Shown: positions 1,318 through 47,976 of the stretch, one piece after another | Position numbering within the stretch: the first letter of the stretch is position 1 | Layout: every line of letters starts with the position of its first letter | NCBI GenBank assembly: GCA_017539105.1 | Contig: JAFYHQ010000046.1 | Span: forward strand, 1-64,000 | Direction of reading: 5' to 3' | From: Erysipelotrichaceae bacterium | GTDB lineage: Bacteria; Bacillota_I; Bacilli_A; Erysipelotrichales; Erysipelotrichaceae | Length of the DNA: 64,000 nucleotides | Notes under the pieces: model-generated | What the model saw: the letters and a program-made list of their open reading frames with translations, nothing else | What the model was told of the DNA's origin: nothing | The model's database searches: none | Position numbers and translations under genes: made by a program

Positions 1318-2645
1318 TCGTAACTCTCCACTTCTTTCAGCAGTTTCGCTTCATCAGAGAAACAAGTCATCGCAAAGGATTCGCCGATCCCTTCATAGCG
1401 CAGATAGGCGATCGCGCTGTCGACATTTTTGCGTAATACGATCTTGCGCATATCCACTCCCGCATTCTCCAGACGGACCGCGAGATCATTGAGATACTGC
1501 CCTGCTACGATGACCATCTTGATATTGTCGGCATTCAGCATTTCAAAGTCGATATCCCATAACCAGGAAGTATCGGAAGTGAAGTATTTCCTGGAGATAT
1601 CTTCCACGATCAGCAGCAATGTGACGTCCTTGCCATAGTTTGTGATATAAGCAAGATTCCGGTTGTAAGAAACGGAATTCTCATGTTTCGAGATCAGCAG
1701 TGTTCCTGTTTTCGAACCGATCTTGAAGCGTTTGATACGGCCGTTATGAATCAGGAATTCATTCAAGGTGTCGATCAGCGAATCCACATGGACATCCAGC
1801 AGTCTGCCGATACTGAAAGCAGCCAGGATATTGTAGGCATTGAAGATCGTATGATACGCCAGATCCAGATGATATTCACCGTTGATCGTCATACGGCCGC
1901 TCTGCAGATCGATATCGCTGATATAGAAATCCGGTTCCGGACGCTCAAAACCGCAGCCCAGACACTTGTATTTGCCGATATGCGCAAACTGGCGGTATTC
2001 ATAGATCATCTTGGACTTGCACAACGGACAGTAGTGGCCGTCATCATAACGTCCTGTCGCTTCCTCTTCGACATACTGGTTTTCATTGACACCGAAATAA
2101 TAGACTTTATTTTCATAAAGACGGCCCAATGAAGCAACCAGCGGATCATCCGCATTCAGGATCAGCGTAGAATCATCTCTGATCGAACGCTTGATCTCTT
2201 CCAGAATGAATTCCGGAGAACCGTTCCTGGTCAGCTGATCACGGAAAAGATTATTGATCACATAGTATTTCGGAACGATATAACGGAAGACATGTTTGGC
2301 ATAACGTTCATCGACTTCCAGAAGCAGGATATCCGCACGGAACCTTCCGCGCAGATTGCAGTGATCGATGATCAGAGTCGTGACGCCTTCGATCTGGTTG
2401 GAACCCTCGCGATTGCTGGCGACACGGTAACCTGCATCCGTCAGGACATGATAGATCATTTCTACGGTCGAAGTCTTGCCATTGGAACCGGTTACGGCAA
2501 TGATATTCTCCGGCAGACGGATACGATTCAGGATATCGGGACAGATCTTTAAAGCGATCTTGCCGGGCAATGAAGATCCGCGATGAAAATATCCACCGAT
2601 CTTTTTGGCTATCTTACATAATGCTATGGCTAACAGTTTTCTCAT
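1314..2645 (-). CDS. murT: MurT-like Mur ligase (lipid II isoglutaminyl synthase catalytic subunit)
   Basis: About 443 residues: Mur ligase central domain with ATP loop TGSNGKTST near residue 55-65, an inserted four-cysteine zinc ribbon (CPLCKSKM ... CLGCGF), and the C-terminal DUF1727 region with SDTSWLWDIDFE, which retains the Asp-rich segment of the family. MurT activates and amidates the D-Glu carboxylate of lipid II. An upstream in-frame TTG would add five residues (MYNRF), but those codons are the -10 box itself, so I place the start at ATG 2645-2643. There is no Shine-Dalgarno sequence. It is first gene of murT-gatD-PAP2, and a cysteine-free GatD partner makes its ammonia source unclear. 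Confidence 0.9.
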   Translation of the reverse strand: MRKLLAIALCKIAKKIGGYFHRGSSLPGKIALKICPDILNRIRLPENIIAVTGSNGKTSTVEMIYHVLTDAGYRVASNREGSNQIEGVTTLIIDHCNLRGRFRADILLLEVDERYAKHVFRYIVPKYYVINNLFRDQLTRNGSPEFILEEIKRSIRDDSTLILNADDPLVASLGRLYENKVYYFGVNENQYVEEEATGRYDDGHYCPLCKSKMIYEYRQFAHIGKYKCLGCGFERPEPDFYISDIDLQSGRMTINGEYHLDLAYHTIFNAYNILAAFSIGRLLDVHVDSLIDTLNEFLIHNGRIKRFKIGSKTGTLLISKHENSVSYNRNLAYITNYGKDVTLLLIVEDISRKYFTSDTSWLWDIDFEMLNADNIKMVIVAGQYLNDLAVRLENAGVDMRKIVLRKNVDSAIAYLRYEGIGESFAMTCFSDEAKLLKEVESYE

Positions 2646-2651
2646 GAATCT

Positions 2652-2657
2652 ATTATA
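2652..2657 (-). promoter_or_regulatory. murT -10 box, predicted leaderless start
   Basis: TATAAT, then AGATTC, then the murT ATG. The 6-base gap puts the expected transcription start on or next to the A of ATG. No good -35 hexamer is seen at the standard distance. Confidence 0.7.
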
Positions 2658-2724
2658 CAATAGGAATATTTATGATGACAGCGAAACTGATGGAATGAAT
2701 CCTGTTTATGAACGATAAAACATA

Positions 2725-2748
2725 AAACGCTATCCGAAGATAGCGTTT
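2725..2748 (-). terminator. Intrinsic terminator downstream of metG
   Basis: Ten-base stem AAACGCTATC/GATAGCGTTT with a CGAA/TTCG tetraloop. On the minus strand it is followed by TATGTTTTATCG. It lies just past the metG stop. Confidence 0.75.
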
Positions 2749-2759
2749 CTAATGAATGA

Positions 2760-4688: not shown

Positions 4689-4709
4689 AGTATCCTCCTA
4701 AAATAAAAA

Positions 4710-4907: not shown

Positions 4908-4910
4908 TCT

Positions 4911-4938
4911 ATTCTAGCACATCTGTTCCTATTATCAA
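4911..4938 (-). promoter_or_regulatory. metG promoter
   Basis: TTGATA (4938-4933), 16 bases, TAGAAT (4916-4911) on the minus strand. The start would be near 4904, at the beginning of the T-box leader. Confidence 0.55.
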
Positions 4939-4961
4939 AATCATGTTTCTGAAAAAAACTA

Positions 4962-4990: not shown

Positions 4991-5014
4991 AGTGACATAT
5001 GTGAGGTAACAGTT

Positions 5015-13695: not shown

Positions 13696-14491
13696 CTTTG
13701 TTTCTTCCTATCTTTTTCTTGATTTTCCTTAACATGTAATTGAGTTTTGAAGCGTTCTTGCCGCGATAGCCTTTGATCCTGGATAAGGTTTCATGGTAGA
13801 TGCGATTCATGGAATTGACGGTCTTGTCGACACGGTCATTGATGAGCCGTTTCCGTCCTTCATCGATGCGATCCACGGCATTATAGAATTTATTGTTCAA
13901 GCCTTTGGATTCATCCAGATAATTCGCAATCAGGATATCCATGTGTTCATTGATGAAATTATCCATTGCTTCCACCCGGTTCTCGAATCCGCTGATGATC
14001 GAAACAGTCAGTGTCAAGTCGATGCTGAAGACGATCGTAAACAGGATCGACAGAATCTCTACAAGCGTATCAGGCAATGCTTCAATGAATGGCAGCAGTC
14101 TCGGATTGATCACATAGACGATCACCAGTCCGGCCAGACCGAACCCGAGCGATGCAGGCAGGCATATGCGCCCGTTGAGATTCAATGGCGCCTTCGAATA
14201 ATCCCACCAGTAGGCATGGAACATCTTTTCCATGGCATAGTGTACGGTATATTCCAGTACGGCAGAAGATCCTACCGCGATAAGGAATACCTGCGTGGGC
14301 GTGTATTCCGTCATGATATAACGGAAGAACAGCGTACCTGCCAATGCCGCAAACCCATAGATCGGAATGATGGGCCCATAAAGAAAACCCCGGTTATCCC
14401 ATTTGCCGCCCCAGATCGTCATGGCGATGGATTCATAAACGTAACCGATAAAGCTGAGAATAATGAAATAAATGATGCATCTGTCGATCAT
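13688..14491 (-). CDS. PF06541-type membrane protein (putative ABC transporter permease)
   Basis: 267 residues. The N-terminal half holds five or six hydrophobic helices with family-typical segments [29 protein letters not shown] and a WWDYS motif. The last 100 residues are charged and helical ([20 protein letters not shown]) and cytoplasmic. This matches the poorly understood 'ABC-transporter type IV' family; no transport role has been shown for it that I can cite. I place the start at ATG 14491, which overlaps the HD gene's stop as ATGA, rather than an upstream in-frame codon inside that gene. Confidence 0.8.
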
Positions 14492-14955
14492 CGGTTCACC
14501 GTCTCTTTCAAGGCGCAAAGCTTATCCGCCAGACAGACCAGGACCGCTTCCTTGTGCCTGGGCACAGACTTCAGCGTCAAAGGCCACATATGCGACCGGA
14601 TGACTTCCTGGGTACGTTCATCGATCTGGAACGATCTCACCGCATTCTCGCAAGCTTCCTTGGGATGAGTGAAACCATGCATCTTGAAGATATTCCAATG
14701 AAGTTCCTTGTCATGCCAGTCATAGAGATAGAAATCATGCAGGATCGCTCCGCCCAGCAGGATCTCAGGATCCGCATTCACATGGAAACGCTTATCCAAA
14801 GCATATGCCGTTCTTGCCACATCCAGACTATGCTGAAGAACGCTCACTTTGCCATGAGCCTTGTAGTTTTCCATCCGCCGTACCTGAGGATCATTCAGAT
14901 ATCGATCAAGGATCCGATCGAATTCCTGCTGATCTGCTTTTCTTAGTTTCACCAT
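14488..14955 (-). CDS. Small HD-domain phosphohydrolase
   Basis: 155 residues with an HD metal site: [26 protein letters not shown] and RSHMWPLT supply the H...HD...D pattern. Small HD proteins of this type are metal-dependent phosphohydrolases acting on nucleotides or similar substrates; the substrate here is unknown. It is first gene of the operon running to the lgt fusion. Only 19 bases separate its ATG from that of the divergent TraB gene, with no room for a ribosome site, so its mRNA is predicted to be leaderless or nearly so. Confidence 0.82.
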
Positions 14956-14958
14956 TTA

Positions 14959-14969
14959 ATTATATAATA
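14959..14969. promoter_or_regulatory. Overlapping divergent -10 boxes, both genes near-leaderless
   Basis: The near-palindrome ATTATATAAT gives TATAAT at 14963-14968 for the plus gene (6 bases from its ATG). On the minus strand it gives TATTAT (14969-14964, 8 bases from ATG) or TATAAT (14964-14959, 3 bases). Both polymerases would compete for the same bases. Confidence 0.65.
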
Positions 14970-14974
14970 GATTC

Positions 14975-16138
14975 ATGAATGATAATATCGCAAAACTGGA
15001 ATATCAAGACAAAGAGATCTATCTGGTCAAAACGGCACACGTTTCCCGCAATTCCGTAGAAGACGTGAAAGAATGCATTGAAGAGGTACAGCCCGATGCG
15101 ATCTGTGTCGAACTGGATCAGGATCGCTACAATAAGCTCAAAGAACCTGAAAAATGGCGCAATACGGATATTGTTAAGGTTATCAAAGAGAAACAGGTTG
15201 GTTTTCTTCTGGTAAATGTGATCCTTTCTTCGTTCCAGAAGCGGATCGCGAAATCGATGGATTCGACTTCAGGTGCGGAGATGAAAACGGCAATGGAAAT
15301 CGCGGAAGAAAAAAATATCCCTCTGGTCATGGCCGACCGTTCCGTCAAAACGACTTTCTCGAGGATCTGGAATGAACTGACATCGAAAGAGAAGATGAAA
15401 CTTCTGACAGGGCTGATCGAATCGGTTTTCGAGAATGAAGATATCAGCGAGGATGATATCAGCAAGCTGAAGGAAGCGGATGCTTTGGAAGCGGCACTGA
15501 TGGAAGTGGGAAAAGCTTTCCCGAATGTCAAGCGGGTACTGGTCGATGAACGGGACCAGTATCTCTGCCAGAAGATTAAGAATGCTCCGGGAAACAAGAT
15601 CGTTGCGGTCATCGGAGCTGCGCACGCAAAAGGCATCGAACAGAATCTGGGCAACGAAATCGATGTACAGGCTCTGGATACGGTCGTCAAGAAAAAAGGA
15701 TTCTCTTCTTATCTGAAGTATCTGATCCCTCTGTTTTTTCTTGCTGTCATCTTATGGACCATCTATCAGAACCAGGATCTCGGATTAAGCCAGATCAAGT
15801 CCTGGTTCCTCTGGCATGGCACCCTTTCTGCTTTGGGTGTGCTGCTGGCATTGGGCCATCCGTTATCGATCGTCACCGCTTTCCTGCTGGCGCCATTGAC
15901 TTCCTTGAATCCGTTACTGGCCTCCGGCTGGTTTGCCGGCATCGTGGAAGCGACCATTAGAAAACCCAAAGTCAAAGACTTCGAAGATATCGCCGAAGAT
16001 ACCGCGACCCTGAAAGGCTTCTGGAAGAACCGGGTCACCAGGACCTTGCTGGTGGTGATCTTCGCAAATCTGTTCTCTTCCTTGGGAACGCTGATTTCCG
16101 GAATCGATATCGTCAGGAAGTTTATCGAAAGCTTCTGA
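14975..16138 (+). CDS. TraB/PrgY-family membrane protein
   Basis: 387 residues. The N-terminal TraB domain shows VKTAHVSRNSVEDV, DAICVELDQDRYNKL and VAVIGAAHAKGIEQNL. The C-terminal third (from about 250) contains four or five hydrophobic segments with HPLSIVTAFLLAPLTSLNP. The family is named from PrgY/TraB, which shut down peptide pheromone in enterococci; chromosomal members of this form are widespread and their role is unsettled. No Shine-Dalgarno sequence precedes the ATG; the -10 box lies 6 bases upstream. A strong terminator follows. Confidence 0.88.
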   Translation: MNDNIAKLEYQDKEIYLVKTAHVSRNSVEDVKECIEEVQPDAICVELDQDRYNKLKEPEKWRNTDIVKVIKEKQVGFLLVNVILSSFQKRIAKSMDSTSGAEMKTAMEIAEEKNIPLVMADRSVKTTFSRIWNELTSKEKMKLLTGLIESVFENEDISEDDISKLKEADALEAALMEVGKAFPNVKRVLVDERDQYLCQKIKNAPGNKIVAVIGAAHAKGIEQNLGNEIDVQALDTVVKKKGFSSYLKYLIPLFFLAVILWTIYQNQDLGLSQIKSWFLWHGTLSALGVLLALGHPLSIVTAFLLAPLTSLNPLLASGWFAGIVEATIRKPKVKDFEDIAEDTATLKGFWKNRVTRTLLVVIFANLFSSLGTLISGIDIVRKFIESF

Positions 16139-16169: not shown

Positions 16170-17252
16170 TTATTCATGGAATCTAGGATCGATCTTTTTT
16201 ACGATCTGCCCGTTTTCGACATAGACTCTGCTGACCCGATCCGTGATGCCTGTCAGCAGTTCATAGGTGATCGTGTTCAGTTCCTTGGCTCTATCAACGA
16301 TCGAAACATGTTCCCCAAAAAATTCTACGACCGTACCCGGGAGATGTTCATGTTCGGTCAGGATCATCAGCTGATCCATGCAGATGCTGCCGACGATCGT
16401 TCCATATTCATTCTCTACATAGACCTGTTTCCCGGTATTGCTGCGATAGAAGCCGTCAGCGTAACCAAGCGGAACCGTCAGGATATATCCCTTGCCATCG
16501 CTGGTGTAGTGTCTTCCATAGGATACGGTATCTCCTTCGGGAAGCCGCTTTGACATGACCACTTCGCTGTACAGTCCCATGCATGGTTTGAGTTCCGTTT
16601 CATAGGAACTGTAACCCAACAGACCGATGCCGATCCTCTCATAGTTGCAGATGTCGTCATGAACCAGGAAGGAGCCGTCGGTTGCGGACATATGGATATA
16701 TCTGAAATCATAATTCAGATCAAGGACACAGTTACGGAAACGTTCATACTGTTTCACGGAATATTCCTCATCAAAATCAGCGCTGGAGAAATGCGACATC
16801 ACGCCTTCGACGATGCTTCCTTTTTCTAGCAGGATCGCCAGGATATCTTTCGCTTCTTCCGGTCGGATGCCCAGACGGTTCATGCCGGTATTGAGCTTCA
16901 AATGGACTTTCATATCCTTCAGATCCGCCTCTTTCACGAATTCCGGACTGTATGTAACGATACTGATATCATTCTCTCTGATGATAGGAAATGCCTCTTC
17001 CGGCACATAGCCCAGGATCAGGATCTGCCCCTTGATGCCATGCTTCTTGAGCCGCAGCGCTTCATCCAGGCTCGAAACCGCAAAGAAATCGACGCCCTTC
17101 TCTTCCAGGACTTTCGCTTCCATGTAGTCGATGCTTCCATAGCCGTCCGCTTTGACCACACCCATCATTTTTTTATTCGATTTATGCAAAAAGTAATCGA
17201 TATTGAATCTCAGTTTATCCAGATCGATCTGCAGGTAAGTGTTTCTGAACAT
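16170..17252 (-). CDS. alr: Alanine racemase
   Basis: 360 residues. PLP lysine lies in VVKADGYGS (near residue 33) and the second catalytic tyrosine in the LGYADGF/SICMDQLM region of the C-terminal beta domain. Alr interconverts L- and D-alanine for peptidoglycan. I start at ATG 17252 (MFRNTYLQIDLDKL) because TACAAT lies exactly 6 bases upstream and no ribosome site is seen; six extra upstream codons would translate the promoter. Divergent or shared transcription with tyrA is unlikely, since both read the same way with 48 bases between. Confidence 0.96.
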   Translation of the reverse strand: MFRNTYLQIDLDKLRFNIDYFLHKSNKKMMGVVKADGYGSIDYMEAKVLEEKGVDFFAVSSLDEALRLKKHGIKGQILILGYVPEEAFPIIRENDISIVTYSPEFVKEADLKDMKVHLKLNTGMNRLGIRPEEAKDILAILLEKGSIVEGVMSHFSSADFDEEYSVKQYERFRNCVLDLNYDFRYIHMSATDGSFLVHDDICNYERIGIGLLGYSSYETELKPCMGLYSEVVMSKRLPEGDTVSYGRHYTSDGKGYILTVPLGYADGFYRSNTGKQVYVENEYGTIVGSICMDQLMILTEHEHLPGTVVEFFGEHVSIVDRAKELNTITYELLTGITDRVSRVYVENGQIVKKIDPRFHE

Positions 17253-17258
17253 AGATAT

Positions 17259-17264
17259 ATTGTA
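17259..17264 (-). promoter_or_regulatory. alr -10 box, predicted leaderless start
   Basis: TACAAT, then ATATCT, then ATG: the same 6-base geometry as murT and the TraB gene. Confidence 0.6.
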
Positions 17265-26423: not shown

Positions 26424-26444
26424 TATAATGTTGTTATGAACAGA
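26424..26444. promoter_or_regulatory. Regulator -10 box with possible autoregulatory operator
   Basis: TATAAT at 26424-26429 is 6 bases before the regulator's ATG (26436), again with no Shine-Dalgarno. Bases 26430-26444 (GTTGTTATGAACAGA) match 11 of 15 positions of the palindrome at 28465-28479. Only 33 bases separate this start from the divergent HPr start. Confidence 0.5.
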
Positions 26445-27380
26445 AACGATAATATACTGGAATATGTTGCTGAACTCTACTATGAGCGCGGTCTGTCTCA
26501 GCAGGAGATCGGTTCGATCATTGGCGCATCGCGCCCGACCGTTTCCCGACTGATCGAAGATGCCAAGAAACAGGGTGTCGTCAAGATCGTCATCGAGACG
26601 TCTGTCAGCAAGAACAATAAACTTTCCAATAAACTGCGTAAGGCGTTCAACCTCAGAGATGCGGTCGTAGTCGGATCGGATTTCGATTTCGACAAGTCGA
26701 TCGATATCTGCGGCAAGGCAGCTGCCATACTGATTTCTGCCTTTCTTGAACCCGGTATGACCATCGGGATCTCCTGGGGCCGTTCGGTCAACAGTTTTGT
26801 CGACGCAATCGATGACGGCGTATTTGACGGAATCAATGTCGCCCAGATGGTCGGCTGTATGACAATGGGGAATCCGGCCATCGATGGATTCTCGGTCGCC
26901 CAGCGTTTGGCCAGGAAGATGCATGGCACTTATTCCTCGATCAATTCGCCGTTATTCGTCAAAGGCAACGAAGTATACAATTACCTGATCAACGAGCCTA
27001 TGATCCATGATGCTTTGCTGAAAGCTAGCAAGGTCGATGTCTGTATCAACGGCATCGGTTCGATGGACGATGTGCGTAATGCGGTCCATCAGTCGGGATA
27101 CTTTGACAGCTATAACCTTGACCGTTTCAAGGACAAAGGCGCAGTCGCTTCCTTTTCGGGAAGATACATAGGTATGAATGGCGAAGAAATCGAGGTTGAG
27201 AATATCCATTCGATTTCGGTTCCTCTCGAGGATGTCAGGAAGGTACCGCTATCCATCGTCCTCAACGCTACAGCCGAGAAAGCCGAAGCGACACTGGCAG
27301 TCCTCAACGGCAAGTATGCCGATATCCTGATCGTGGATGAGGCATTAGCCGAGAAACTGCTCGAATCAGCGAAGAAGTGA
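26436..27380 (+). CDS. SorC/DeoR-type sugar-binding transcriptional regulator
   Basis: 314 residues from ATG 26436. The N-terminal helix-turn-helix covers YYERGLSQQEIGSIIGASRPTVSRLIEDAK, and the rest is the SorC effector domain, with GISWGRSVNSF, VAQMVGCM and INGIGSMDD typical of that family. These regulators bind phosphorylated sugars. It is divergent from the PTS operon and thus its probable regulator. A longer reading frame begins upstream, but its extra codons (…YNVV) are the promoter and the antisense of HPr. A terminator overlaps the stop. Confidence 0.92.
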   Translation: MNRNDNILEYVAELYYERGLSQQEIGSIIGASRPTVSRLIEDAKKQGVVKIVIETSVSKNNKLSNKLRKAFNLRDAVVVGSDFDFDKSIDICGKAAAILISAFLEPGMTIGISWGRSVNSFVDAIDDGVFDGINVAQMVGCMTMGNPAIDGFSVAQRLARKMHGTYSSINSPLFVKGNEVYNYLINEPMIHDALLKASKVDVCINGIGSMDDVRNAVHQSGYFDSYNLDRFKDKGAVASFSGRYIGMNGEEIEVENIHSISVPLEDVRKVPLSIVLNATAEKAEATLAVLNGKYADILIVDEALAEKLLESAKK

Positions 27381-34354: not shown

Positions 34355-37300
34355 CTATTCGACCGACTTCAATGATTCGACCATCTCGATATTGTTCAGT
34401 CTTCTCTTCATAAACATGAATACCAGCAATGTGAATAAAATGGTAATGACAAAAGAAATCGCAAAACTGAAGATAGAAATATTCATGCCGAACATCATCA
34501 TATCCATATTGATGACATTCATGATGAAATGATGCTCAAGCACACCCAGAGGCAATCCGATGAGCCCGCCGATGACGCTTAAAAGCAGGATCTCTTTGAA
34601 GATATAGTTATTGACTTCCAGATCATGGAAACCCAGTACCTTCAAGGTGGCGATCTCCCTGATCCGTTCCGCGACGTTGACCTGGATCAGATTCAGCAGA
34701 ACGACCAGGGCCAGAGAGCCTGCCGCAACGATAATGACCGCAATGATGAAATTCAATGCCTGCAGCATCGTATTGAACTGATCGATGAAACCGGTGAAAT
34801 CGGTCAGTGATACGAAATCTTCCAGTCTCTTGGTGTCCTTGATCAGCTCTTCCCGATTATCGGAAGATACCGCAATCGTATTGCAGTGTACGTTTTCACC
34901 GAACGTATCCTCATAATAGGATTCCGAAATAAACATGTAGTGCTGGAAATAGAATTCGCAGATTTTGGCGATCTTGACTTCTCTCTTGAGCCCGCTCATC
35001 GATTCGATCGTGACATAGTCCCCTTCTTTGAGATGATGGTTGATCGCGAACTTCTCTGAAAGAATGACCCCGCTGTTATCCAGTTCGATCGGTGTCTTGC
35101 GGTCCCTGTCATTCAGTCCGAGAACCGACTTGCTTTCACGGGCATCGAAGACTTCCACGGTCAGAGTATCGTCTTCTCCTTCCCTCAGGTATGCCTTGGA
35201 CGTATAAGTCATGAAAGCGACGACTTCCTTGTTGTTAAGATTCTCTTTCAGGATCTCGATGTTTTCGTCGAGATGATGATCGCTGTCCAGCGTAATGTGA
35301 TAGTCATAGGCAAAGATCTTTCCATACTGGATGGCGACCACATCGGAAATGGAATCCCGGATGCCAAAGCCTACGACCAGAAGACCCGTACAGCCTGCCA
35401 CGCCGATGATAGTCATCAGAAAACGGGCTTTGTAGCGGAAGATATTCCTTGCGGTGATCTTCGAGGTGAATGGCAGTCTCTTCCACAGGAAAGTGATCTT
35501 TTCCAGCAGCACACGTTTCGAGCTCTTCGGAGCTTTCGGTCGCAGAAGCGAAGAAGGCATCTCTTTCATCGCGCTGCGTGCGACCAGATAGGTCACGACG
35601 CTCATCAGAAGAGCGAATGCCGCAATGCAGATCAGGACATACTGCCAGGGATAATACAGATCGATCGGTGGCAGGTCATACATCAGACGCCAGGTCACAT
35701 AGATGACAGTAGGAAAAATAAGCTGGCCGAATATGACGCCTAAAACACTCCCGGTCAATGTCGCGATCAGCGCATAGACCACGTACTTGCCGATGATACG
35801 GACAGAAGAAAAACCCAGAGCCATGAAAATGCCGATCTGCGAACGCTGCTCATCGATGAGCCTGGTCATGGTCGTCATGCATACAAGTGCCGCGACCAGA
35901 TAGAACAGGAACGGCATCGCATATCCGATGGCAGACATCTGTCTGATCGTGTTCTTAAACATATAGGAAGAATAATGGGAATCCCGATCCAGTATGATCC
36001 AGGAAGCGTTAGGCAACGCTTCCAGTTCTTCCCCGGCGATATTCAGTTCATTCTGTGCCTTTTCGATCTCGTCATTGAAATCCATCAGGGCTTCATTGTA
36101 TTCCTTTAAACCCTTCTCATATTCCCTCTTGCCCGCTTCCAGCTGCGCCTTGGCATCTTCCAGCGCTTTCTTTCCCGCTTCTGCCTGTTCCTTCCCCGCT
36201 TCCAGCTGTTTCCTAGCGGACTGTATCTGCGATCTTGCTTCATATAAGGTTCTCAGCTGAACGAATGTCGTTTCCACGGAACCATTGAATTCCTCATCGA
36301 TCGCTTTCATCATTTCCTCCCTGGATTGCTCAGCGATCTCGCCGGAAGATCCCGTAAAGTTCTCCAAAGTCTGATCAATGACGGCATTGCGTACTTCGAG
36401 GCTCTGACGTTCTATCTCCAAAGAGGCAGCTTTTTCGATATAGTCTTCCGCCGTCTTGTCCAAAGCAGCCAGTTCCGCATCGATCTCCGCGATCCTGGCC
36501 AGATTCTCTTTTTTCTCCCTGTTCAGTTCTTCCGTAAACCGTTCATTATAGTTTCCCGTATCAAAACTGTTTTCTTTCAGAATGACGTAAGACGTATAGG
36601 CAGCCGATACCTCCGTATACAAAGAATCGAAATCCATCCCCGCAGCCTGTTCCGCCTGAGCGATTCCGGATTTCACGGATGCTTCATTCTGATCCAAAAC
36701 CCGTTCGTTGGCTTCGATTTCCGCCAGAGAAGTCTCCAAAGAGATGCGATTCGAATTCAGCAGGCTTTCGTTGACGATCAGTTCGATATTCGCATCCTCA
36801 AGCTTCTGCTTCGCTTCCTGCAGTTTGGCTTCCCCTTCGTTCTTCTGCGTTTCAAATTCCGTCTTCGCATCATTGAGTTTCAGCAGATTTTCATTATAGA
36901 TCCTGTCTCTTAAGTAAGACTGCTGATGATTCTTCGTCGATTCGATCGAACCCGTCAGGGTCTCCACGTAATCCTCATATTCCGAAGTATAAGAAATATA
37001 TTTCTCCGTTCCCTTCAGTTTCAGATAGATCGAAGTATAGTAATCAAAAATAAAATTGCTGTTGGGTATAAACACAACGCCATCCAGTTCCTGATTCTCA
37101 CAGTTGGAAGAACCCATCAGCTTGGAAATGTAAGCCGGCGATTTGCAGGTACCGACGATCGTAAAAGTATCATTCTTCAGATGATCGCCGATCTCTTCGT
37201 TATTCAGAAATGCCGTGACCTTCTTGCCGATCAGACGCGAAGCGCTTTCCACGCCATCCCCCAGGATCAAAGCTTCTTTTTCATTCTCAGGCATCCTGCC

Positions 37301-37654
37301 TTCCACCAGTTCGATCAGATTGACCGTACGATCGATCTCCTCGAAACGGTAGACATGGACATCGCCTTGAGCGATCTTCCCATAGGCATCGACCATCTTC
37401 GTGCCAAACGCATACTCGACATCCTGGTTCTTTCTTAACGCTGCAAGATCTTCATCGCAGAACCCGTAGCTGGAATACAGCTGCAGATCCTGCAGGCGAT
37501 CGCTGTCATTATAGAGATCGACGCTTTCCCTCAAGATCGTGCCATTGGAAAAAAGCCCCATCATGAAAGATGAAGATACCAGAACGATCATAAACAATGA
37601 AAAGAAACGATTGAAAGTGTTTCTGATCAGACGGAAAGTATCTTTGCTAAACAT
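34355..37654 (-). CDS. FtsX-like ABC transporter permease with large coiled-coil ectodomain
   Basis: 1099 residues from ATG 37654, which shares one base with the ATPase stop (TGATG). One N-terminal helix is followed by an extracellular region whose part at about 255-545 is heptad-rich coiled coil (KLQEAKQKLEDA, KQLEAGKEQAEAGKKALE). A first FtsX domain with three or four helices (about 575-700) and a second at the C-terminus (about 980-1099, SLALVVLLNLIQVNVAERIREI) follow. This layout fits MacB/LolC-like mechanotransmission or lipid and peptide exporters. The substrate is unknown. Confidence 0.88.
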   Translation of the reverse strand: MFSKDTFRLIRNTFNRFFSLFMIVLVSSSFMMGLFSNGTILRESVDLYNDSDRLQDLQLYSSYGFCDEDLAALRKNQDVEYAFGTKMVDAYGKIAQGDVHVYRFEEIDRTVNLIELVEGRMPENEKEALILGDGVESASRLIGKKVTAFLNNEEIGDHLKNDTFTIVGTCKSPAYISKLMGSSNCENQELDGVVFIPNSNFIFDYYTSIYLKLKGTEKYISYTSEYEDYVETLTGSIESTKNHQQSYLRDRIYNENLLKLNDAKTEFETQKNEGEAKLQEAKQKLEDANIELIVNESLLNSNRISLETSLAEIEANERVLDQNEASVKSGIAQAEQAAGMDFDSLYTEVSAAYTSYVILKENSFDTGNYNERFTEELNREKKENLARIAEIDAELAALDKTAEDYIEKAASLEIERQSLEVRNAVIDQTLENFTGSSGEIAEQSREEMMKAIDEEFNGSVETTFVQLRTLYEARSQIQSARKQLEAGKEQAEAGKKALEDAKAQLEAGKREYEKGLKEYNEALMDFNDEIEKAQNELNIAGEELEALPNASWIILDRDSHYSSYMFKNTIRQMSAIGYAMPFLFYLVAALVCMTTMTRLIDEQRSQIGIFMALGFSSVRIIGKYVVYALIATLTGSVLGVIFGQLIFPTVIYVTWRLMYDLPPIDLYYPWQYVLICIAAFALLMSVVTYLVARSAMKEMPSSLLRPKAPKSSKRVLLEKITFLWKRLPFTSKITARNIFRYKARFLMTIIGVAGCTGLLVVGFGIRDSISDVVAIQYGKIFAYDYHITLDSDHHLDENIEILKENLNNKEVVAFMTYTSKAYLREGEDDTLTVEVFDARESKSVLGLNDRDRKTPIELDNSGVILSEKFAINHHLKEGDYVTIESMSGLKREVKIAKICEFYFQHYMFISESYYEDTFGENVHCNTIAVSSDNREELIKDTKRLEDFVSLTDFTGFIDQFNTMLQALNFIIAVIIVAAGSLALVVLLNLIQVNVAERIREIATLKVLGFHDLEVNNYIFKEILLLSVIGGLIGLPLGVLEHHFIMNVINMDMMMFGMNISIFSFAISFVITILFTLLVFMFMKRRLNNIEMVESLKSVE

Positions 37655-38352
37655 CAGTATTCGATTTCCTCTATGCTGACCGGAACATTCCTCAGGATGT
37701 CGACGATCCTGCCTGATTTGACCCGGATGATCTTCTGGGCCATTCTCGCAAGCGCCTGATTGTGCGTGATCATGACCACGGTGATGCCATTCTTGTAGCA
37801 CATATCCTGCAATACTTTCAGGACCTGTTTCCCTGTCACATAGTCCAAGGCACCGGTCGGTTCATCGCACAGCAGCAGTTTCGGATTCTTTGCCACCGCT
37901 CTGGCGATCGCCACTCTCTGCTGCTCGCCTCCGGACAGCTGCGAAGGAAAGTTGTTCATCCGCTCTTCCAGACCTACCATCTTCAGAACGAAAACCGGAT
38001 CCAAAGGATTCTTGCAGATCTGCAGAGCCAGTTCAACATTTTCTTTGGCAGTCAGATTCTGTACCAGATTATAGAACTGAAACACGAAACCGATATCATA
38101 ACGCCTATAATCGCATAGTTCTTTCCGATTGAAACCGGTCACATTCTTACCATCGAAATATACGGATCCGTTGGAAGCCGTATCCATTCCTCCCAGGATA
38201 TTCAGGATCGTCGTCTTTCCTGCGCCGCTATCGCCTAAGATGACGACGAATTCTCCTTTTTCAATATCAAAAGAAACGCTATCCAGCGCTTTGATCTGTA
38301 CTTCTCCCATCTGATAGATCTTTGATACGTCTCTGAATGAAATAAAACTCAT
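37654..38352 (-). CDS. ABC transporter ATP-binding protein (MacB/LolD family)
   Basis: 232 residues with Walker [12 protein letters not shown], signature [14 protein letters not shown], Walker [13 protein letters not shown] and H-loop MITHN. It powers the FtsX-like permease encoded immediately downstream. TATAAT lies 10 bases before the ATG with no ribosome site visible, so the leader is at most a few bases. The family's usual length (about 225-235) supports this start. Confidence 0.95.
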
Positions 38353-39338: not shown

Positions 39339-40733
39339 TCATTCCATAAAGAGAACATCGAAATCGCAGTACCAGTCGATCCCATCGATCTGACCCCAGT
39401 CCAGGACCTGCCAGATCTGATAGTCTTTGTCATAGCTCGGCCAGTCCGTATACTGGGCCAGCCAGATCGGATGATTCCCGGCGTTCGGCCAGACGACATT
39501 GAGGAAATACTTGCTTCCATACAGCATGCTTTCATAGCCTCTGGCAGCGACTTCTCTTTCAAAGACATTGTAAAGATACTCCAGATCGCGGAAACTCACA
39601 TGATAACGCTGGAAATGATCGAAATTCTCCCAGTCGAAAACGATCGGCAGTTCCAGCTCGGTATCGCCTAAAGCTTCGAACATCTGTTCCATGGTCCGAA
39701 GCAGGTCTGCTTCGTTGCTGTCATAGCAGAACAGATAGATCCCTACAGGCAGTCCCGCTTCTTTGCAGCCTCTGATATTCCGCTCAAACTGCTTGTCTAT
39801 CGTCAGTTTCCCTTCATGCGAGAAACCGATACGCATGATCACGAATTCACATCCCGCTTTTTTGATTGCATCGAAATCGATCTCATCCTGCCATTCCGAG
39901 ACATCGATCCCAAGCATCCTTCTTTCTCCTGCGTACTCTTTCTTGAACTGTTCGAACGGATAGGAATAATCATCCGGTTCTTCCCAAGGGATCTCGCTGA
40001 CGACCTGAACGGTCAGGTCCCAGTCGGTCGTATTTCCCGAGGCGTCCGTGACTGCCACATGGAGAGGATAATGACCAAGCCTGTTCGTATCGACAGTACC
40101 TTCGACCGTCAGGATCGGATCAGGATCCGCGTTGTCTCCGTAGCTGATGATATCCATGATATTGAAGTCGTCTCCCTTCAGGATCTTCGTACCGTTCCCT
40201 GTCCGGAAAATAAGAGGCGCTTCCGGATCCCGGATCACGACTTCATAGGAAGCCTCCGATACATTCCTGTAATCATCTTCCGCCCTGATGCTGACCGTAT
40301 AGGTTCCCGGAAAAGACGGATCATAATCGCTTTCGCAGATAAAAGAACCTTCATTGACTCGAATATTCCGTTTCATGTCCTCAAAAGAATAATACTCTCC
40401 TAATTCTTTATGAACCGTATCGTTTTCAATAGCGATCACCGGAGGTGTCGTATCGACGACTTCATAAGAGAATACGACATCCCTGCTGAAGATACCTTTC
40501 TTGACGGTATAATGAAACGACTGTATGCCTATCTCGTTGGTATACAGTGTATTCCGTTCCGGAGTGACAGTACCATTGCTTCGTTCGATGAAGTCTTCCG
40601 CCCGATAGATCACGCCCCGTTCCAGGACCTGAGCCTTCGTAAAACGGATGGATGGCAGAAACAGAAAGATCCCGGCGATCAGCAATATCGCGGGAACGAT
40701 GATAAACAAGACTTTTTTCAGATGCCTGTTCAT
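39339..40733 (-). CDS. Secreted or anchored GH25 lysozyme with Ig-like domains
   Basis: 464 residues from ATG 40733. An uncleaved signal or anchor helix (VLFIIVPAILLIAGIFLFL) is followed by two or three Ig-like/DUF5011-type repeats (VVDTTPPVIAIEND, VVIRDPEAPLIF, DASGNTTDWDLTV). From about residue 285 comes a GH25 domain with GIDVSEWQDEIDFDAI, FVIMRIGF, GIYLFCYD and FDWENF. GH25 muramidases cut peptidoglycan. TACAAT lies 7 bases before the ATG with no ribosome site. An upstream in-frame extension would translate that promoter. Confidence 0.9.
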   Translation of the reverse strand: MNRHLKKVLFIIVPAILLIAGIFLFLPSIRFTKAQVLERGVIYRAEDFIERSNGTVTPERNTLYTNEIGIQSFHYTVKKGIFSRDVVFSYEVVDTTPPVIAIENDTVHKELGEYYSFEDMKRNIRVNEGSFICESDYDPSFPGTYTVSIRAEDDYRNVSEASYEVVIRDPEAPLIFRTGNGTKILKGDDFNIMDIISYGDNADPDPILTVEGTVDTNRLGHYPLHVAVTDASGNTTDWDLTVQVVSEIPWEEPDDYSYPFEQFKKEYAGERRMLGIDVSEWQDEIDFDAIKKAGCEFVIMRIGFSHEGKLTIDKQFERNIRGCKEAGLPVGIYLFCYDSNEADLLRTMEQMFEALGDTELELPIVFDWENFDHFQRYHVSFRDLEYLYNVFEREVAARGYESMLYGSKYFLNVVWPNAGNHPIWLAQYTDWPSYDKDYQIWQVLDWGQIDGIDWYCDFDVLFME

Positions 40734-40740
40734 ATATCTT

Positions 40741-40746
40741 ATTGTA
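40741..40746 (-). promoter_or_regulatory. GH25 gene -10 box, predicted leaderless start
   Basis: TACAAT followed by AAGATAT and the ATG (7 bases). Confidence 0.55.
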
Positions 40747-41680: not shown

Positions 41681-42286
41681 CTATTCTCTGACTTTTTTCT
41701 TTCTTTCGATGGCAGTGATCTCTGTACCGTTCAGGATCCGTTTGATGTTGACGCGGTGCTTATATGCGATCAGTGCGGCAATCGCAACAAGGATCGCAAT
41801 GACACCGATGCTGGCTTTGTTATAGATGTAGTAAAGCGGCACGATCGTGATCGCCGTCAGCGTTCCGACAACGATATAATTGGTCACATAAGTGATGATC
41901 GCAACGATTGCCATGACGATCAGCGCAAACTTCCAGTTCAGTCCCAGAAGCATACCGATGTAGCACGCAAAACCTTTGCCTCCATGAAAGCCCAGATAGA
42001 ACGGATAGATATGTCCTACGATCGACATTGCTCCTGCCAGGAACGGAATGATCTCATCGCCCAGGAACAGATAGCTTGTCAGTTTCATGGCAAGGATCGT
42101 TTTCAGGAAATCGCACAGGCATGTGAATATGGCATATCCCCATCCGAGATTGACCTTGATATTGCTGGCGCCGGCATTCATGCTTCCCCTTTCACGTATA
42201 TCGAAACCCTTTGCCTTCGCAATAAAATACGCTGTATTGAAACTGCCAAACAAATAAGAAATAAGTGCGGTATACAAATAATTCAT
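41681..42286 (-). CDS. plsY: Glycerol-3-phosphate acyltransferase PlsY
   Basis: 201 residues from ATG 42286. PlsY loops are visible: GSFNTAYFIAK with ERGSMNAGASN (family GSGNpGaTN), and HIYPFYLGFHGGKGFA (family HxfPvflkFkGGKG). Five or so helices. It transfers acyl groups from acyl-phosphate to glycerol-3-phosphate, the first step of phospholipid synthesis. The first motif is somewhat divergent (SMNAGAS). The -10 TATAAT is 6 bases from the ATG; upstream in-frame codons (…LYNRF) are the promoter. Confidence 0.9.
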   Translation of the reverse strand: MNYLYTALISYLFGSFNTAYFIAKAKGFDIRERGSMNAGASNIKVNLGWGYAIFTCLCDFLKTILAMKLTSYLFLGDEIIPFLAGAMSIVGHIYPFYLGFHGGKGFACYIGMLLGLNWKFALIVMAIVAIITYVTNYIVVGTLTAITIVPLYYIYNKASIGVIAILVAIAALIAYKHRVNIKRILNGTEITAIERKKKVRE

Positions 42287-42292
42287 AAATCT

Positions 42293-42298
42293 ATTATA
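42293..42298 (-). promoter_or_regulatory. plsY -10 box, predicted leaderless start
   Basis: TATAAT, AGATTT, ATG: 6-base spacing, nearly the same as murT. Confidence 0.65.
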
Positions 42299-42362
42299 TA
42301 AAACTTTCCTTTCCATAATAAAGTCATATCTATGACTGCAGACAGAAGAAACAGCCTTGTTT

Positions 42363-42368
42363 TATAAT
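42363..42368 (+). promoter_or_regulatory. GDPD gene -10 box, predicted leaderless start
   Basis: TATAAT, GAAATC, ATG 42375. No purine-rich ribosome site is present. Confidence 0.65.
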
Positions 42369-42374
42369 GAAATC

Positions 42375-43208
42375 ATGAAAATGCTTATAGCGATCCTGTT
42401 GATTCTGATGATTTATCTCTATCTGATCAAACCTGCCGGAAAGAAGAGAAAAGATAAGATGAAACCTTTCGAGGAAGTCTATCTGACTCATCGCGGTTTC
42501 TTCAACAACATCGATATTCCGGAGAACAGTCTTCCGGCTTTTGCCAAAACGGTCAGAAACGGTCTGGGTACGGAACTGGATGTGCAGCTTACGACAGACA
42601 ACAGGCTGGTCGTTTTCCATGACCAGAATCTGAAACGGATGTGCGGTGTCGATAAGAAACTGACGGATTGTTCGTACGAAGAACTGCAGCAGTACAGGCT
42701 TCTGGATACGGAAGAGAAGATCCCGCTGCTGGAAGAGGTACTGAAGCTTCTGAAACCGGACACGCCGCTGATCATCGAAATCAAACCTGAAGGAGATGCC
42801 ATCCGTACCTGTGAAGAGACCGTGAAGATGATGAAAGACCGCAGCAATCTTTATGTCATGGAATCATTCCATCCCGGAGTCGTTTATTATCTGAAGAAAC
42901 ATCATCCCGAGATCATCCGCGGACAGCTTGCCTACGACATGTTTGCGGATAAAGAAAACACGGACACGTTCCTGACCCGTTTCATCTGTACGAATCTTTT
43001 AGGAAACTGCATGACCAGGCCTGATTTCGTTGCTTATGATGTCAACAGCAAACATAATCTTTCTTTCCTGTTATGTTCGAAACTGTTCAAAGCTGAATGC
43101 GTCGCATGGACAGTAAAAAACGAAGATGATCTGGCTTACGCACGCAAATACTATCAGCAAGTCATCTTCGATACTTTTGTTCCATCAGATATCAGCGAGC
43201 GTGATTAA
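42375..43208 (+). CDS. Glycerophosphodiester phosphodiesterase, membrane-anchored
   Basis: 277 residues from ATG 42375. One N-terminal helix (MLIAILLILMIYLYLI) precedes the catalytic TIM barrel with THRGFFNNIDIPENS (HR and E-N-S), GTELDVQLTTDNRLVVFHD and IIEIKPEG. It hydrolyses glycerophosphodiesters to glycerol-3-phosphate and an alcohol. It is divergent from plsY, which uses glycerol-3-phosphate; this may reflect a shared lipid theme. Confidence 0.92.
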   Translation: MKMLIAILLILMIYLYLIKPAGKKRKDKMKPFEEVYLTHRGFFNNIDIPENSLPAFAKTVRNGLGTELDVQLTTDNRLVVFHDQNLKRMCGVDKKLTDCSYEELQQYRLLDTEEKIPLLEEVLKLLKPDTPLIIEIKPEGDAIRTCEETVKMMKDRSNLYVMESFHPGVVYYLKKHHPEIIRGQLAYDMFADKENTDTFLTRFICTNLLGNCMTRPDFVAYDVNSKHNLSFLLCSKLFKAECVAWTVKNEDDLAYARKYYQQVIFDTFVPSDISERD

Positions 43209-43923: not shown

Positions 43924-44871
43924 TTAAATCACTTTATTCAGCTGACCGCCATCCAGCCATGCCCGCAGGTTGTCGAAAACGATTTCTGCACGCAACGACA
44001 TGGATTCCTTGGTGGCGAATGCGATGTGAGGCGTAAGCAACGTATTTGGCGCTTTCAGCATCTGCGTATCTGCAGGAAGAGGCGGCTCTTTCGTATAGAC
44101 GTCGATGGCTGCCCCGGCAATGATTCCTTCCGACAATGCGCAAGCCAGATCATTCTCATTCGTGACCGGACCTCTGGCCAGATTGATCAGGATCGCCGTT
44201 TTCTTCATCAGACAGAGTTTCTCATAATCGATCAATCCTCTGGTGGAATCGTTCAAAGGACAGTGCAGTATGACGATATCGCTCTCTTTCAGCAAGTCAT
44301 CCAAGGATACCTGTTTCACGTAATTGGGATATTCCGGATGCATCGTTCTGCTGCAGGCAAGGATCTTGCAGCCAAAGGCATGAAACAGTTCTCCGCTGCG
44401 GCTGCCGATCTTTCCATAACCCACAATACCCACGGTCTTATTCCTTAATTCCGAACCGACCAGACCATCTTTCGTTCCTCCTGAACGCACACGTTCCTGT
44501 ACCTGAGGAATGTTCCTGAGCATGCCGATCGCCATGCCTACTGCCAGTTCAGCGACTGCCTCATTGGAATAGCCGGAAGCGTTCGATACTTTGATGCCCT
44601 TTTCTTTTGCTGCTTTCAGACCGACATGATCCACGCCGGTAAATGCCACATTGATGAACTGCAGCCTGTCGCATGCTTCGATCACTTCGTCAGGCATCGG
44701 CATATTCGCAATGATCATGGCATCCGCATCTTTTGTTTCTTCTTTCAGAATATCGACATCTGTCGTTTTTTCGTATTCAGCAAATTCGACTTCGTTTTCA
44801 AATGCTTTCTCATATTTCTCTAATTCTTCCTCAGGGATTCCCAGAGATTCCAGAATAACAACTTTCTTCAT
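43924..44871 (-). CDS. D-2-hydroxyacid dehydrogenase
   Basis: 315 residues. NAD site GIVGYGKIGSRSGEL, catalytic Arg in NLARGPVTN, Glu in YTKEPPLP and His in TPHIAFATKE. It probably interconverts a 2-oxoacid and a D-2-hydroxyacid, such as pyruvate or a branched or aromatic oxoacid. It is distinct in length and sequence from the family member at 22650. AAGGAG precedes the ATG. Confidence 0.92.
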   Translation of the reverse strand: MKKVVILESLGIPEEELEKYEKAFENEVEFAEYEKTTDVDILKEETKDADAMIIANMPMPDEVIEACDRLQFINVAFTGVDHVGLKAAKEKGIKVSNASGYSNEAVAELAVGMAIGMLRNIPQVQERVRSGGTKDGLVGSELRNKTVGIVGYGKIGSRSGELFHAFGCKILACSRTMHPEYPNYVKQVSLDDLLKESDIVILHCPLNDSTRGLIDYEKLCLMKKTAILINLARGPVTNENDLACALSEGIIAGAAIDVYTKEPPLPADTQMLKAPNTLLTPHIAFATKESMSLRAEIVFDNLRAWLDGGQLNKVI

Positions 44872-44899
44872 GATGTTTCTCCTTGCCAGCCTTGATTCT

Positions 44900-44930
44900 A
44901 TTATACAGAAACAGGACTATACAGTCCTGT
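44900..44930 (-). terminator. PepF terminator merging into the dehydrogenase -10 box
   Basis: Stem ACAGGACT/AGTCCTGT (44930-44911), TTCTG, then TATAAT (44905-44900) on the minus strand. Confidence 0.75.
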
Positions 44931-44950
44931 TTCTTGTTTACTGTTTCTTC

Positions 44951-46762
44951 TTACAGCTTGATTCCATCGATCTCTTCAGTCAGTTCGCAGATCTCATCGA
45001 TGATGGAACCGATATAGTCGATCGTCGCATTCAATGGCCCATCCGTGGTGATATCGAAACCGGCGATCCTGGCCAGTCCTACCGGATCTTCGCTAGCTCC
45101 GGCAGCGAGGAATCTCTTCCAATCCTGTACGGCAGTTTCGCCTTCGTTTTCGATACGAAGCATTGCCTGTGTCGCAACCGTGAGTCCTGCGCTGTAGGTA
45201 TAAGGATACAGACCCATGTAATAGTGCGGCTGACGCATCCAGGTAAGTTCCGCTCCTTCCGGAATCTCTACGGTATCGCCCCAGAACAGTTCCAGATTCT
45301 TGCGGAAGATATCGCTTAATATTTCCGCGTTCACGCTGCCGCCTTCTTCAATGATCTTATAGACCTCTCTCTGATACCATGCTTCCCTTAAGTGAGTCAC
45401 GAAATTATGATAGTAAGTATTGCTGATCTGGCTGGAAAGGACCCAGCGACGGAAGCGTTTGTCTTCTTTCGTGTGTGTCAGATAATGTGCCAGCAGCAGC
45501 TCGTTCATGGTCGAAGGAGCTTCGACCAGATACATGGAAGGGCTCTGATCGTAGTAGGATTGCGCCTTGTCGCCATACATGGACTGTCCCGCATGGCCAA
45601 GCTCATGGGCAATGGTAAAAACATCCGACATACGGTCGTTCCAGTTCAGCAGGATAAAGGAATTTTGCTGATAGACGCCGGAACAGAAACCTCCTGTGCT
45701 CTTTCCGATGTTTCTGGCAAAATCGATCCAGCGTTCCTTATAAGCCCGATCGACCATGTCCACATAATCCTCGCCAAGGATCGCCAAAGCATCCCGCACA
45801 TACTGATGGGATTCCTCGATCGTGACTTTCGGATCATATTCCGGATCGACAGCGATCTTTAGATCCGCAAAGGTCATTTTCTCAAGATTATACTTTTTCT
45901 GTAGAAGTTTCGCATATTTACGCATATGCGGAGCAAGACGTTCCGTGATCACATCGATCTGCCTGTCATACATTTCCCGTGTCACTTTCTGATTGAACAG
46001 AAGGCTGTCGAACACGTTATCGAATTTACGTAATTCCGACATCGTCTTTTCCTGGCTGACACAGGCATTATAGGCAGCGGCTGTCGTGTTTTCGTATTTC
46101 TTCAGCGTATCATAAAAAGCGCGGAAAGCGGCACGGCGTATTTTGGTATCGGCTTCCAGTTCATAGTTGTCTTCGAACAGGGAATAGCCTAACGGATATT
46201 CTTTGCCATCGACCGTAAACGGATCGAACGAAATATCCGCAAGTTTTGCCGTGTTATAGATGGTATAAGGAAGATCAAACGATCTGCTTAGCGCAGCCAG
46301 CGTCTTTTCCGTTTCCGGCGAAAGCATATGCGCCTTTTTCTTGATCAGATCCTGCAGGTAGATCTTGCATCCTTTTGCCAGTTCTACGGCTTTTTCCAGT
46401 TCCTCATCCGCAGCCAGCAAAATCTCGCTGTCGACAAAGGCCATCTGGCTTTCCATCTTGATGATCTCATCGCTTACTTTTTCATTCCGTTCACGAAGCT
46501 TGTTGTCGGTATAGTCCGCTTCGACTGCCAGTCCCGTATAGGACCAGATCCTGTAAATGACAGGGAGCATTTTCTCCATCTCATCGAGACATTCCACGAT
46601 CGTCTCTGCCTTGTCCAGATGCCCGGCATATTTTTCAACGAAATGTTTTGTTTCTTCTTTGATCTTTTCCAATGCTTCCCACATCAGTTTTTCATCGGAA
46701 TAAAGCAGGGACAGATCCCAGGTCTCCTGTACAGGTACATCTTTACGGTTCAACAGTTCCAT
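44951..46762 (-). CDS. pepF: Oligoendopeptidase F
   Basis: 603 residues from ATG 46762, which has GAAAGGAAG upstream; a longer frame would include the -10 box (SYNKK). M3 metallopeptidase with zinc motif TIAHELGHAGQS near 370. The N-terminal VPVQETWDLSLLY and the C-terminal MGLYPYTYSAGL with catalytic Tyr/His are typical of PepF. It degrades short cytoplasmic peptides. Confidence 0.96.
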   Translation of the reverse strand: MELLNRKDVPVQETWDLSLLYSDEKLMWEALEKIKEETKHFVEKYAGHLDKAETIVECLDEMEKMLPVIYRIWSYTGLAVEADYTDNKLRERNEKVSDEIIKMESQMAFVDSEILLAADEELEKAVELAKGCKIYLQDLIKKKAHMLSPETEKTLAALSRSFDLPYTIYNTAKLADISFDPFTVDGKEYPLGYSLFEDNYELEADTKIRRAAFRAFYDTLKKYENTTAAAYNACVSQEKTMSELRKFDNVFDSLLFNQKVTREMYDRQIDVITERLAPHMRKYAKLLQKKYNLEKMTFADLKIAVDPEYDPKVTIEESHQYVRDALAILGEDYVDMVDRAYKERWIDFARNIGKSTGGFCSGVYQQNSFILLNWNDRMSDVFTIAHELGHAGQSMYGDKAQSYYDQSPSMYLVEAPSTMNELLLAHYLTHTKEDKRFRRWVLSSQISNTYYHNFVTHLREAWYQREVYKIIEEGGSVNAEILSDIFRKNLELFWGDTVEIPEGAELTWMRQPHYYMGLYPYTYSAGLTVATQAMLRIENEGETAVQDWKRFLAAGASEDPVGLARIAGFDITTDGPLNATIDYIGSIIDEICELTEEIDGIKL

Positions 46763-46813
46763 ATATATCTTCCTTTCTGCCTTTTCAGGCTCTGTTTCGA
46801 TTCTTTCTTTTTT

Positions 46814-46819
46814 ATTATA
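46814..46819 (-). promoter_or_regulatory. pepF -10 box
   Basis: TATAAT about 50 bases before the chosen ATG. It decides against the upstream ATG at 46825, which would lie before this box. Confidence 0.55.
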
Positions 46820-46881
46820 AGACATGACGGTTCGAAATTAAGCGATACACCCATGAAAAAAGACTATAATAGTATTTAACT

Positions 46882-47976
46882 ATGGATACACTCAAGAAAA
46901 CAGGCTTCAAGGTTTCGATCATCGGAATCATCGTGAATACGATCCTTTGCGTCATCAAGCTGATCATAGGCCACTACAGCAAGTCGATCGCTATCGTGAC
47001 CGATGGTTTTGATAATCTGTCCGATGTCGGCAATTCCCTGATGATCCTGGTTGCTTACCGTCTGGCATCCAAGCCCGCGGACAAAGACCACCCATACGGT
47101 CACGGACGCATCGAAAACATGCTTTCCCAGGCGATTTCGCTGATGATCATGTCGGTAGGCGTAACGCTTCTGATTTCTTCCGTAAAACGGATCCTGGACC
47201 CGCAGACGCTGATTCAGGATGACAGGATCATTCTGATGATCATTGTATCGATCCTGATCAAGCTGGGGCTGGCTTATTATTACTATCGGATTTACGCTTC
47301 AACGAAACTGAACAGCATCAAGGCGCAGGTTTCCGATTCCCTTTCGGATACTGCCAGAAATCTTGTCATCATCGTAAGCTATGCTATTACGCTATTTACC
47401 GGATGGAATCTGGATGGCTACATCGGTGTCATCGTATCGGTCATGATCATATTCAACGGGTTCAGGCTGTTCAGCGAGACAAGTTCCATTCTTGTGGGCA
47501 AAACAGGCGATGATTCCCTGATCGATGAAATCAGCAATATCCTTTCCGGCCAGAAACAGATCCTTGGCGTCCATGATCTGCGTATCCATTCCTACGGTCC
47601 CATGATTAACTATGCCAGTGCCGATGTAGAGATCGATGGCGACTTGAATTTCATGAAAGTCCATGATCTTCTGGATACCCTGGAGGAACAGATCAGGAAC
47701 GAGACCGGCGTGATCATTACGCTTCATGGCGATCCCGTCAGCAACGATCAGCGAACCAGGCGGTTAAGAGAGATCATCAAAGAAACGATCAGTCTTTATG
47801 ATGGCGTATCATATCATGATCTGCATTACAATGAGAGCCTCTCCTGCTACCATGTGGATCTTTCCATCCCGTATGCGTATGACTTAAAAAAGAATGACAT
47901 CGTGAAACAGATCAGCGATGCCATTCATGAATATGAGAAGGAGATCGATATACAGATCAATGTGGACAGACATTGA
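46882..47976 (+). CDS. Cation diffusion facilitator (CDF) metal exporter
   Basis: 364 residues. Six helices with metal site motifs TDGFDNLSDVGNS (D-x4-D type) in helix 2, HPYGHGR after it, and SDSLSDTARN in helix 5. A C-terminal cytoplasmic domain of about 150 residues is longer than in minimal CDFs. It exchanges protons for Zn, Mn or Fe. TATAAT lies 11 bases before the ATG without a ribosome site, so the leader is only a few bases. Confidence 0.92.
   Translation: MDTLKKTGFKVSIIGIIVNTILCVIKLIIGHYSKSIAIVTDGFDNLSDVGNSLMILVAYRLASKPADKDHPYGHGRIENMLSQAISLMIMSVGVTLLISSVKRILDPQTLIQDDRIILMIIVSILIKLGLAYYYYRIYASTKLNSIKAQVSDSLSDTARNLVIIVSYAITLFTGWNLDGYIGVIVSVMIIFNGFRLFSETSSILVGKTGDDSLIDEISNILSGQKQILGVHDLRIHSYGPMINYASADVEIDGDLNFMKVHDLLDTLEEQIRNETGVIITLHGDPVSNDQRTRRLREIIKETISLYDGVSYHDLHYNESLSCYHVDLSIPYAYDLKKNDIVKQISDAIHEYEKEIDIQINVDRH

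Follow-up and report, generated by a model that had tools for sequence, protein, structure and literature searches.

The window, a 64,000-nucleotide stretch of a gut Erysipelotrichaceae genome (2.09 Mb assembly, 48 contigs, 89% complete), contains six genes whose ATG follows a -10-like box at the same distance. On the reverse strand these are murT, coding for a lipid II isoglutaminyl synthase subunit (1314..2645; candidate leaderless promoter and start at 2643..2657, with TATAAT 2657-2652, six bases and ATG 2645), alr, coding for alanine racemase (16170..17264 including its box; TACAAT 17264-17259, ATG 17252), and a plsY-like gene (41681..42298 including its box; TATAAT 42298-42293, ATG 42286). 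The forward strand carries a TraB-family gene (14975..16138; TATAAT 14963-14968, with ATG 14975 at the predicted +1), a SorC/DeoR-type regulator gene (26424..27380 including its box; TATAAT 26424-26429, ATG 26436) and a GDPD gene (42363..43208 including its box; TATAAT 42363-42368, ATG 42375). A pattern scan of both strands bore out the six TANAAT-N6-ATG sites of the original prediction and found them to be the sole matches in the window, where about 0.8 would be expected from the mean at other spacings. They open reading frames of 201 to 443 codons. The absence of a Shine-Dalgarno (SD) sequence, also predicted, extends to one longer in-frame start each, checked for murT, alr, the SorC gene, plsY and GDPD. 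Profile searches supported the names MurT (one match, from residue 1), TraB, alanine racemase, SorC/DeoR-type regulator, PlsY and GDPD; with respect to curated NCBIfam cut-offs, PlsY was slightly under one and MurT and the regulator were far under theirs, and all three passed Pfam thresholds. The plsY and GDPD genes (42286-42375) are divergent, with leaderless-type starts at separate boxes and start codons 88 bp apart. Similar separate-box pairs also occur in L093, L097 and L108.

Five further genes had been proposed as leaderless with boxes lying 7, 8, 9, 10 and 11 bases before the ATG. These distances are correct, but the box of the PHP gene reads TATCAT rather than TANAAT. Counts of TANAAT at 7 to 11 bases were 14, 9, 5, 5 and 3, against means of 4.8-5.5 in shuffled sequence. 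Thus, only the distance of 7, and perhaps that of 8, exceeds chance, and the cases at 9-11 bases were dropped. The GH25 gene start (40731..40746, reverse strand; TACAAT 40746-40741, 7 bases before ATG 40733) is accordingly listed as a weak, near-leaderless candidate. A 1148-residue permease ORF (34355-38352) is listed from a GTG that makes it overlap, in a different frame, with the ABC ATPase gene (37654-38352); its true start probably lies further downstream.

Spacing was analyzed in an 864-kb sample of this genome, made up of the window and 40 other stretches, with every ATG counted that opens an ORF of 80 codons or more. In this sample TANAAT occurred 72 times at exactly six bases, against a mean of 10.5 (range 3-24) at 30 other distances. 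For TATAAT alone the count was 46 at six bases, 1 at five and 5 at seven, with a mean of 4.9 (range 0-13) at the other 30 spacings. In a comparison with shuffled upstream regions, set beforehand (770 called genes, 2915 candidate ATGs, 100 dinucleotide shuffles), the sharp peak at six bases was recovered, with 65 observed cases against a shuffled mean of 5.25 and a maximum of 15. Over the whole genome, TATAAT-N6-ATG was found 92 times, the N5 spacing 24 times and the reversed pattern 10 times. The observation of recurrent TANAAT-N6-ATG starts is thus confirmed.

Among 769 classified genes of the sample, 65 were leaderless-type, 428 had a strong SD, 157 a weak SD and 119 neither. The sampled contigs were drawn from those with matches in the whole-genome TATAAT-N6-ATG scan and hold 51 of the 92 sites in 41% of the genome; therefore, the raw rate of 65/769 (8.5%) overstates the genome rate, which we estimate at about 6% of genes after scaling by whole-genome sites. 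An SD match at the same ATG was rare in the leaderless-type class (five or more bases in 2/65, four bases in 1/65). Strong SD leaders do coexist with these starts, as predicted: at each distance from 4 to 8 bases, AGGAGG precedes 12-24 ATGs that open an ORF. A divergent neighbor was present for 36/65 leaderless-type genes versus 75/410 strong-SD genes. Eighteen of the 65 lie less than 50 bp behind a same-strand gene, which makes an internal promoter less certain for them. Folding around the start was no different in leaderless-type and SD genes (p=0.16), so that less structured mRNA starts were rejected as a feature of the class.

The 72 N6 sites share further features. The base at -1 is T or C in 71/72 (264/428 strong-SD genes have a pyrimidine there), C amounts to only 1-4% at -6 to -3, T-purine-T occupies -17 to -15, and a weak -35 element, TTGAnA, is present. 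Similar features were found at 57 leadered promoters, i.e. intergenic TATAAT boxes upstream of SD genes, which we used as an internal calibration of the start site. In these, a pyrimidine-purine step at bases 6/7 past the box occurred in 61%, as compared with 7-28% at eleven other offsets. The seventh base past the box therefore seems to be the transcription start of these leadered promoters too, and in the six window genes this base is the A of the ATG. The predicted placement of +1 on the ATG is supported by this calibration.

The box upstream of TraB has an additional property, unexpected and absent from the original prediction. It is part of a palindromic -10 box (14959-14968) at the center of a dyad-symmetric element, CAC-N6-ATTATATAAT-N6-ATG (14950..14977, without strand), which carries two divergent leaderless-type starts. 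The partner of TraB is the gene of an HD-domain protein of 154 residues (14488..14952, reverse strand), for which the box reads TATAAT-N6-GTG on the other strand. Box spacing and relatives both favor GTG 14952, six bases past the TATAAT, which is probably the start of this gene, rather than ATG 14955. Expressed as CAY-N6-ATTATATAAT-N6-RTG, the module lets both predicted +1s coincide with a start codon; 22 bp separate the two start codons, and 23 bp the predicted 5' ends. By this geometry the first codons of each gene would double as upstream promoter DNA of the other.

Of the 36 genus genomes, 30 carry the module, at 53 sites including the one in the window; among 236 further genomes of the family (a count that includes the apparently unreadable G016 and G055), 1 does. 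The reversed control gave no match in 272 genomes. In a draw across the phylum, 5 of 390 non-genus genomes contained a match, with long ORFs on both sides in two (L271 and L274). These two isolated modules, in other families of the class, suggest rare independent origins, and the other three matches look like chance. We fetched 53 sites, 52 from the genus and the one from elsewhere in the family. In 51 of them both flanks carry an ORF of 60 residues or more; the two others are cut off at contig edges. Several gene pairs recur: a YceD-like gene (match under the Pfam threshold) with a HIGH nucleotidyltransferase gene at 26 sites, UDG/FolC at 12, GH25/GNAT at 4, 1-PFK/MurE at 3 and TraB/HD at 3 plus the window, and four pairs occur once. 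The 52 genus sites comprise 41 distinct 28-mers, and 61 of their 104 N6 stretches are distinct. Among the 104 starts (80 ATG and 24 GTG), the base at -1 is a pyrimidine in 101, and an SD-like core occurs in only 2. Unlike the 72 sites, the palindromic modules are not depleted in C at -3 (31/104) and are less depleted at -4 (10/104).

We then compared the N6 starts in relatives. The nearest by UvrA (L009-L023, 83-97% identity) are MAGs, many of which originate from goat, sheep or buffalo gut. Among the loci around UvrA, TATAAT-N6-ATG upstream of TraB was conserved in 18/18 relatives, with protein identities of 63-93% and varying flanks; in one of them (L059) the aligned start fits and an upstream ATG was set aside. 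TANAAT-N6-ATG upstream of alr was kept in 5/5. The comparison gene metG had the N6 box in 0/7 and an SD in 7/7. In G002, another member of the genus, the TraB and murT orthologs are leaderless-type; the same-genus murT ortholog (L182) has TATAAT-N6-ATG.

Conservation of the arrangement beyond the genus was mostly not found: across family loci TANNAT-N6-ATG precedes murT in 2/30, plsY in 3/30 and TraB in 5/29, the own genome being counted in each. In the remaining family loci, an SD-like core lies within 20 bases of the start in 24/28 for MurT, 22/27 for PlsY and under half (11/24) for TraB, and a TANAAT box lies 13-34 bases before the start in 14, 16 and 13 of them, respectively. Since these distant homologs are mostly not leaderless-type and often have an SD core or a box further upstream, leaderless starts may have been gained at the level of the genus, through loss of a short leader. 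At the genome scale, enrichment of N6 over N5 was observed in some other genera and not in others. It was significant after correction in 12/58 genomes, with a ratio of at least 2 in 19/58 and under 1.2 in 20/58; the ratios may be somewhat high, because the own genome has few N5 cases (7 in the 864-kb sample, below most distances). This comparison covered 58 of 115 rows, with four from the genus and roughly one for each of the other genera, and omitted the remaining rows and two empty genomes, G016 and G055, which gave zero matches or one control match, protein searches included, and may be unreadable or masked. Two genomes of other genera, G018 and G045, display a very sharp TATAAT-N6-ATG signal (65 versus 2 and 79 versus 9 at N5) and are without the palindromic module.

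Loss of ribosomal protein bS1 was considered as a cause of leaderless starts. The own genome has four S1-domain matches, all short, in four ORFs; bS21 is present, and no full-length S1 was found in own-genome or family searches. The rpsA cut-off was reached by none of 57 genomes (55 weak matches, the best at 75.7 bits of 577, and none in G016 and G055), in a test that is itself weak, as only 2 of 14 control genomes pass. Thus, bS1 loss fails to separate leaderless-rich from leaderless-poor genera and is unsupported as a cause within the family.

In our view these genes very probably have ordinary housekeeping-sigma promoters positioned so that +1 would fall on the first letter of the start codon. 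The resulting leaderless mRNAs would be translated from a 5'-terminal AUG or, in some cases, GUG, presumably through the 70S/initiator-tRNA pathway described for such messages, with most other genes being served by strong or weak SD starts. At TraB and at the recurrent pairs, the self-complementary -10 would be read both ways, yielding two leaderless mRNAs from a 22-bp gap. Some leaderless-type genes may have additional upstream promoters. The sites might be TATAAT-like words standing by chance before ATG in AT-rich DNA and picked out by a pattern-seeking reader, and the boxes at 9-11 bases do occur at chance frequency; for spacing 6, chance is refuted by the 65 cases against a shuffled maximum of 15, and the genome-wide excess over the reversed pattern and the conservation at TraB despite changing flanks make it extremely improbable as a general account. 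The promoters could also be real and the ATG at +1 incidental, the proteins starting elsewhere, at a downstream ATG with its own leader. Profile matches leave room for this in FolC (from residues 21-23) and MurE (from 8-14), whose starts are not fixed by the profile. In murT, alr and plsY, however, the match starts at residue 1 or close to it, and in the nucleotidyltransferase, UDG, 1-PFK, IspD and TruB the match to curated profiles starts within the first four residues (1-4) of the protein. Residue 1 of the nucleotidyltransferase aligns to position 1 of its family profile (331.7 bits, cut-off 360), which favors the predicted start. Moreover, the module ORFs are homologous at both ends, independently of the pattern (an RTG at +1 is there by construction). 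Starts elsewhere are therefore very unlikely.

A closer competitor is transcription beginning 1-5 bases before the ATG, leaving a tiny leader without SD. The slight excess at distances 7 and 8 over about 5.3 points in this direction, and start-site choice by RNA polymerase can shift by one base; the pyrimidine-purine step of the leadered promoters and the -1 pyrimidine nevertheless place +1 on the A, and we regard such tiny leaders as unlikely. At the palindromic sites, only one direction might be used, the symmetry being incidental. RNA polymerase binding once does block the other direction, according to passages of PMC12825309, but the fetched genus sites have homologous ORFs starting at both predicted +1s, and the diversity of the 28-mers and the near-absence of the module outside the genus speak further against incidental symmetry, which is quite improbable. 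Altogether, the leaderless interpretation is well supported by the sequence data. As the module stands at unrelated gene pairs, it would represent an architecture that can be used repeatedly rather than a single promoter passed on by descent. We consider it likely that this self-complementary 28-bp element is a genus-wide initiation module, in which a single palindromic -10 would be the core of the entire intergenic region between two divergent leaderless genes.

A gut family of Bacillota thus joins the lineages with frequent leaderless-type genes, and the mode is conserved gene by gene within the genus and seldom outside it. To our knowledge, a two-gene promoter this compact is unusual. The choice between 14952 and 14955 in the HD gene suggests that gene callers centered mainly on SD sequences may set such starts wrongly. 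Evolution from leadered to leaderless genes becomes testable by comparing genera of one family.

The original statement that leaderless starts are rare in Bacillota proved too strong. Excerpts of the literature give 8.6-9% of mRNAs in streptococci by dRNA-seq (PMC6431027) and predictions in Lactobacillales and Mycoplasma (PMC3160421). Passages of PMC4342826 report no leaderless genes in B. methanolicus and cite 2.1% in B. licheniformis and a predicted 2.4-16.6% in about a quarter of Firmicutes. Thus, leaderless genes here are a known phenomenon in a new lineage. A full-text search, with subscription papers mostly outside its reach, returned no title on leaderless genes in Erysipelotrichia or Erysipelotrichaceae; the class occurs in the anti-SD table of one paper, as far as its excerpts show. 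The same kind of search, of similar reach, returned no title describing such a module for leaderless genes with bidirectional or divergent overlapping promoters. Within this scope, the predicted genus-wide symmetric leaderless pair would be new.

The starts described here resemble the TA-led genes of Zheng et al. 2011 (PMC3160421), which likewise lack an SD and have a -10-like box about 12 bp before the start codon, the distance at which the first T of the box lies here. The TA-led Firmicutes cases are mainly from Lactobacillales and Mycoplasma, whereas Erysipelotrichaceae are unnamed in the excerpted passages of that paper. In streptococci, leaderless mRNAs are largely conserved between species and exist beside leadered ones, as in this genus (passages of PMC6431027); they were shown there by dRNA-seq, whereas our case comes from sequence, concerns another family and includes paired divergent starts. 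The shared -10 with dyad symmetry, found at 14959-14968 and at 52 other genus sites, is that of the bidirectional promoters of Warman, Grainger and colleagues (PMC12825309, PMC10268837), which have divergent start sites of the kind predicted here. The 23 bp between predicted +1s, given by the geometry, would correspond to a common start spacing in E. coli, where 18 and 10 bp are also preferred (PMC12825309, in part). Here, each predicted RNA would have a protein gene's start codon at its very 5' end, and neither paper contains the word leaderless. The nearest case found is M. tuberculosis lysG/lysE (PMC5648196, in excerpt), where two genes diverge from overlapping promoters and one of the transcripts is leaderless. 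It differs in having a 108-bp intergenic region and a leaderless start that arises from a second, separate promoter.
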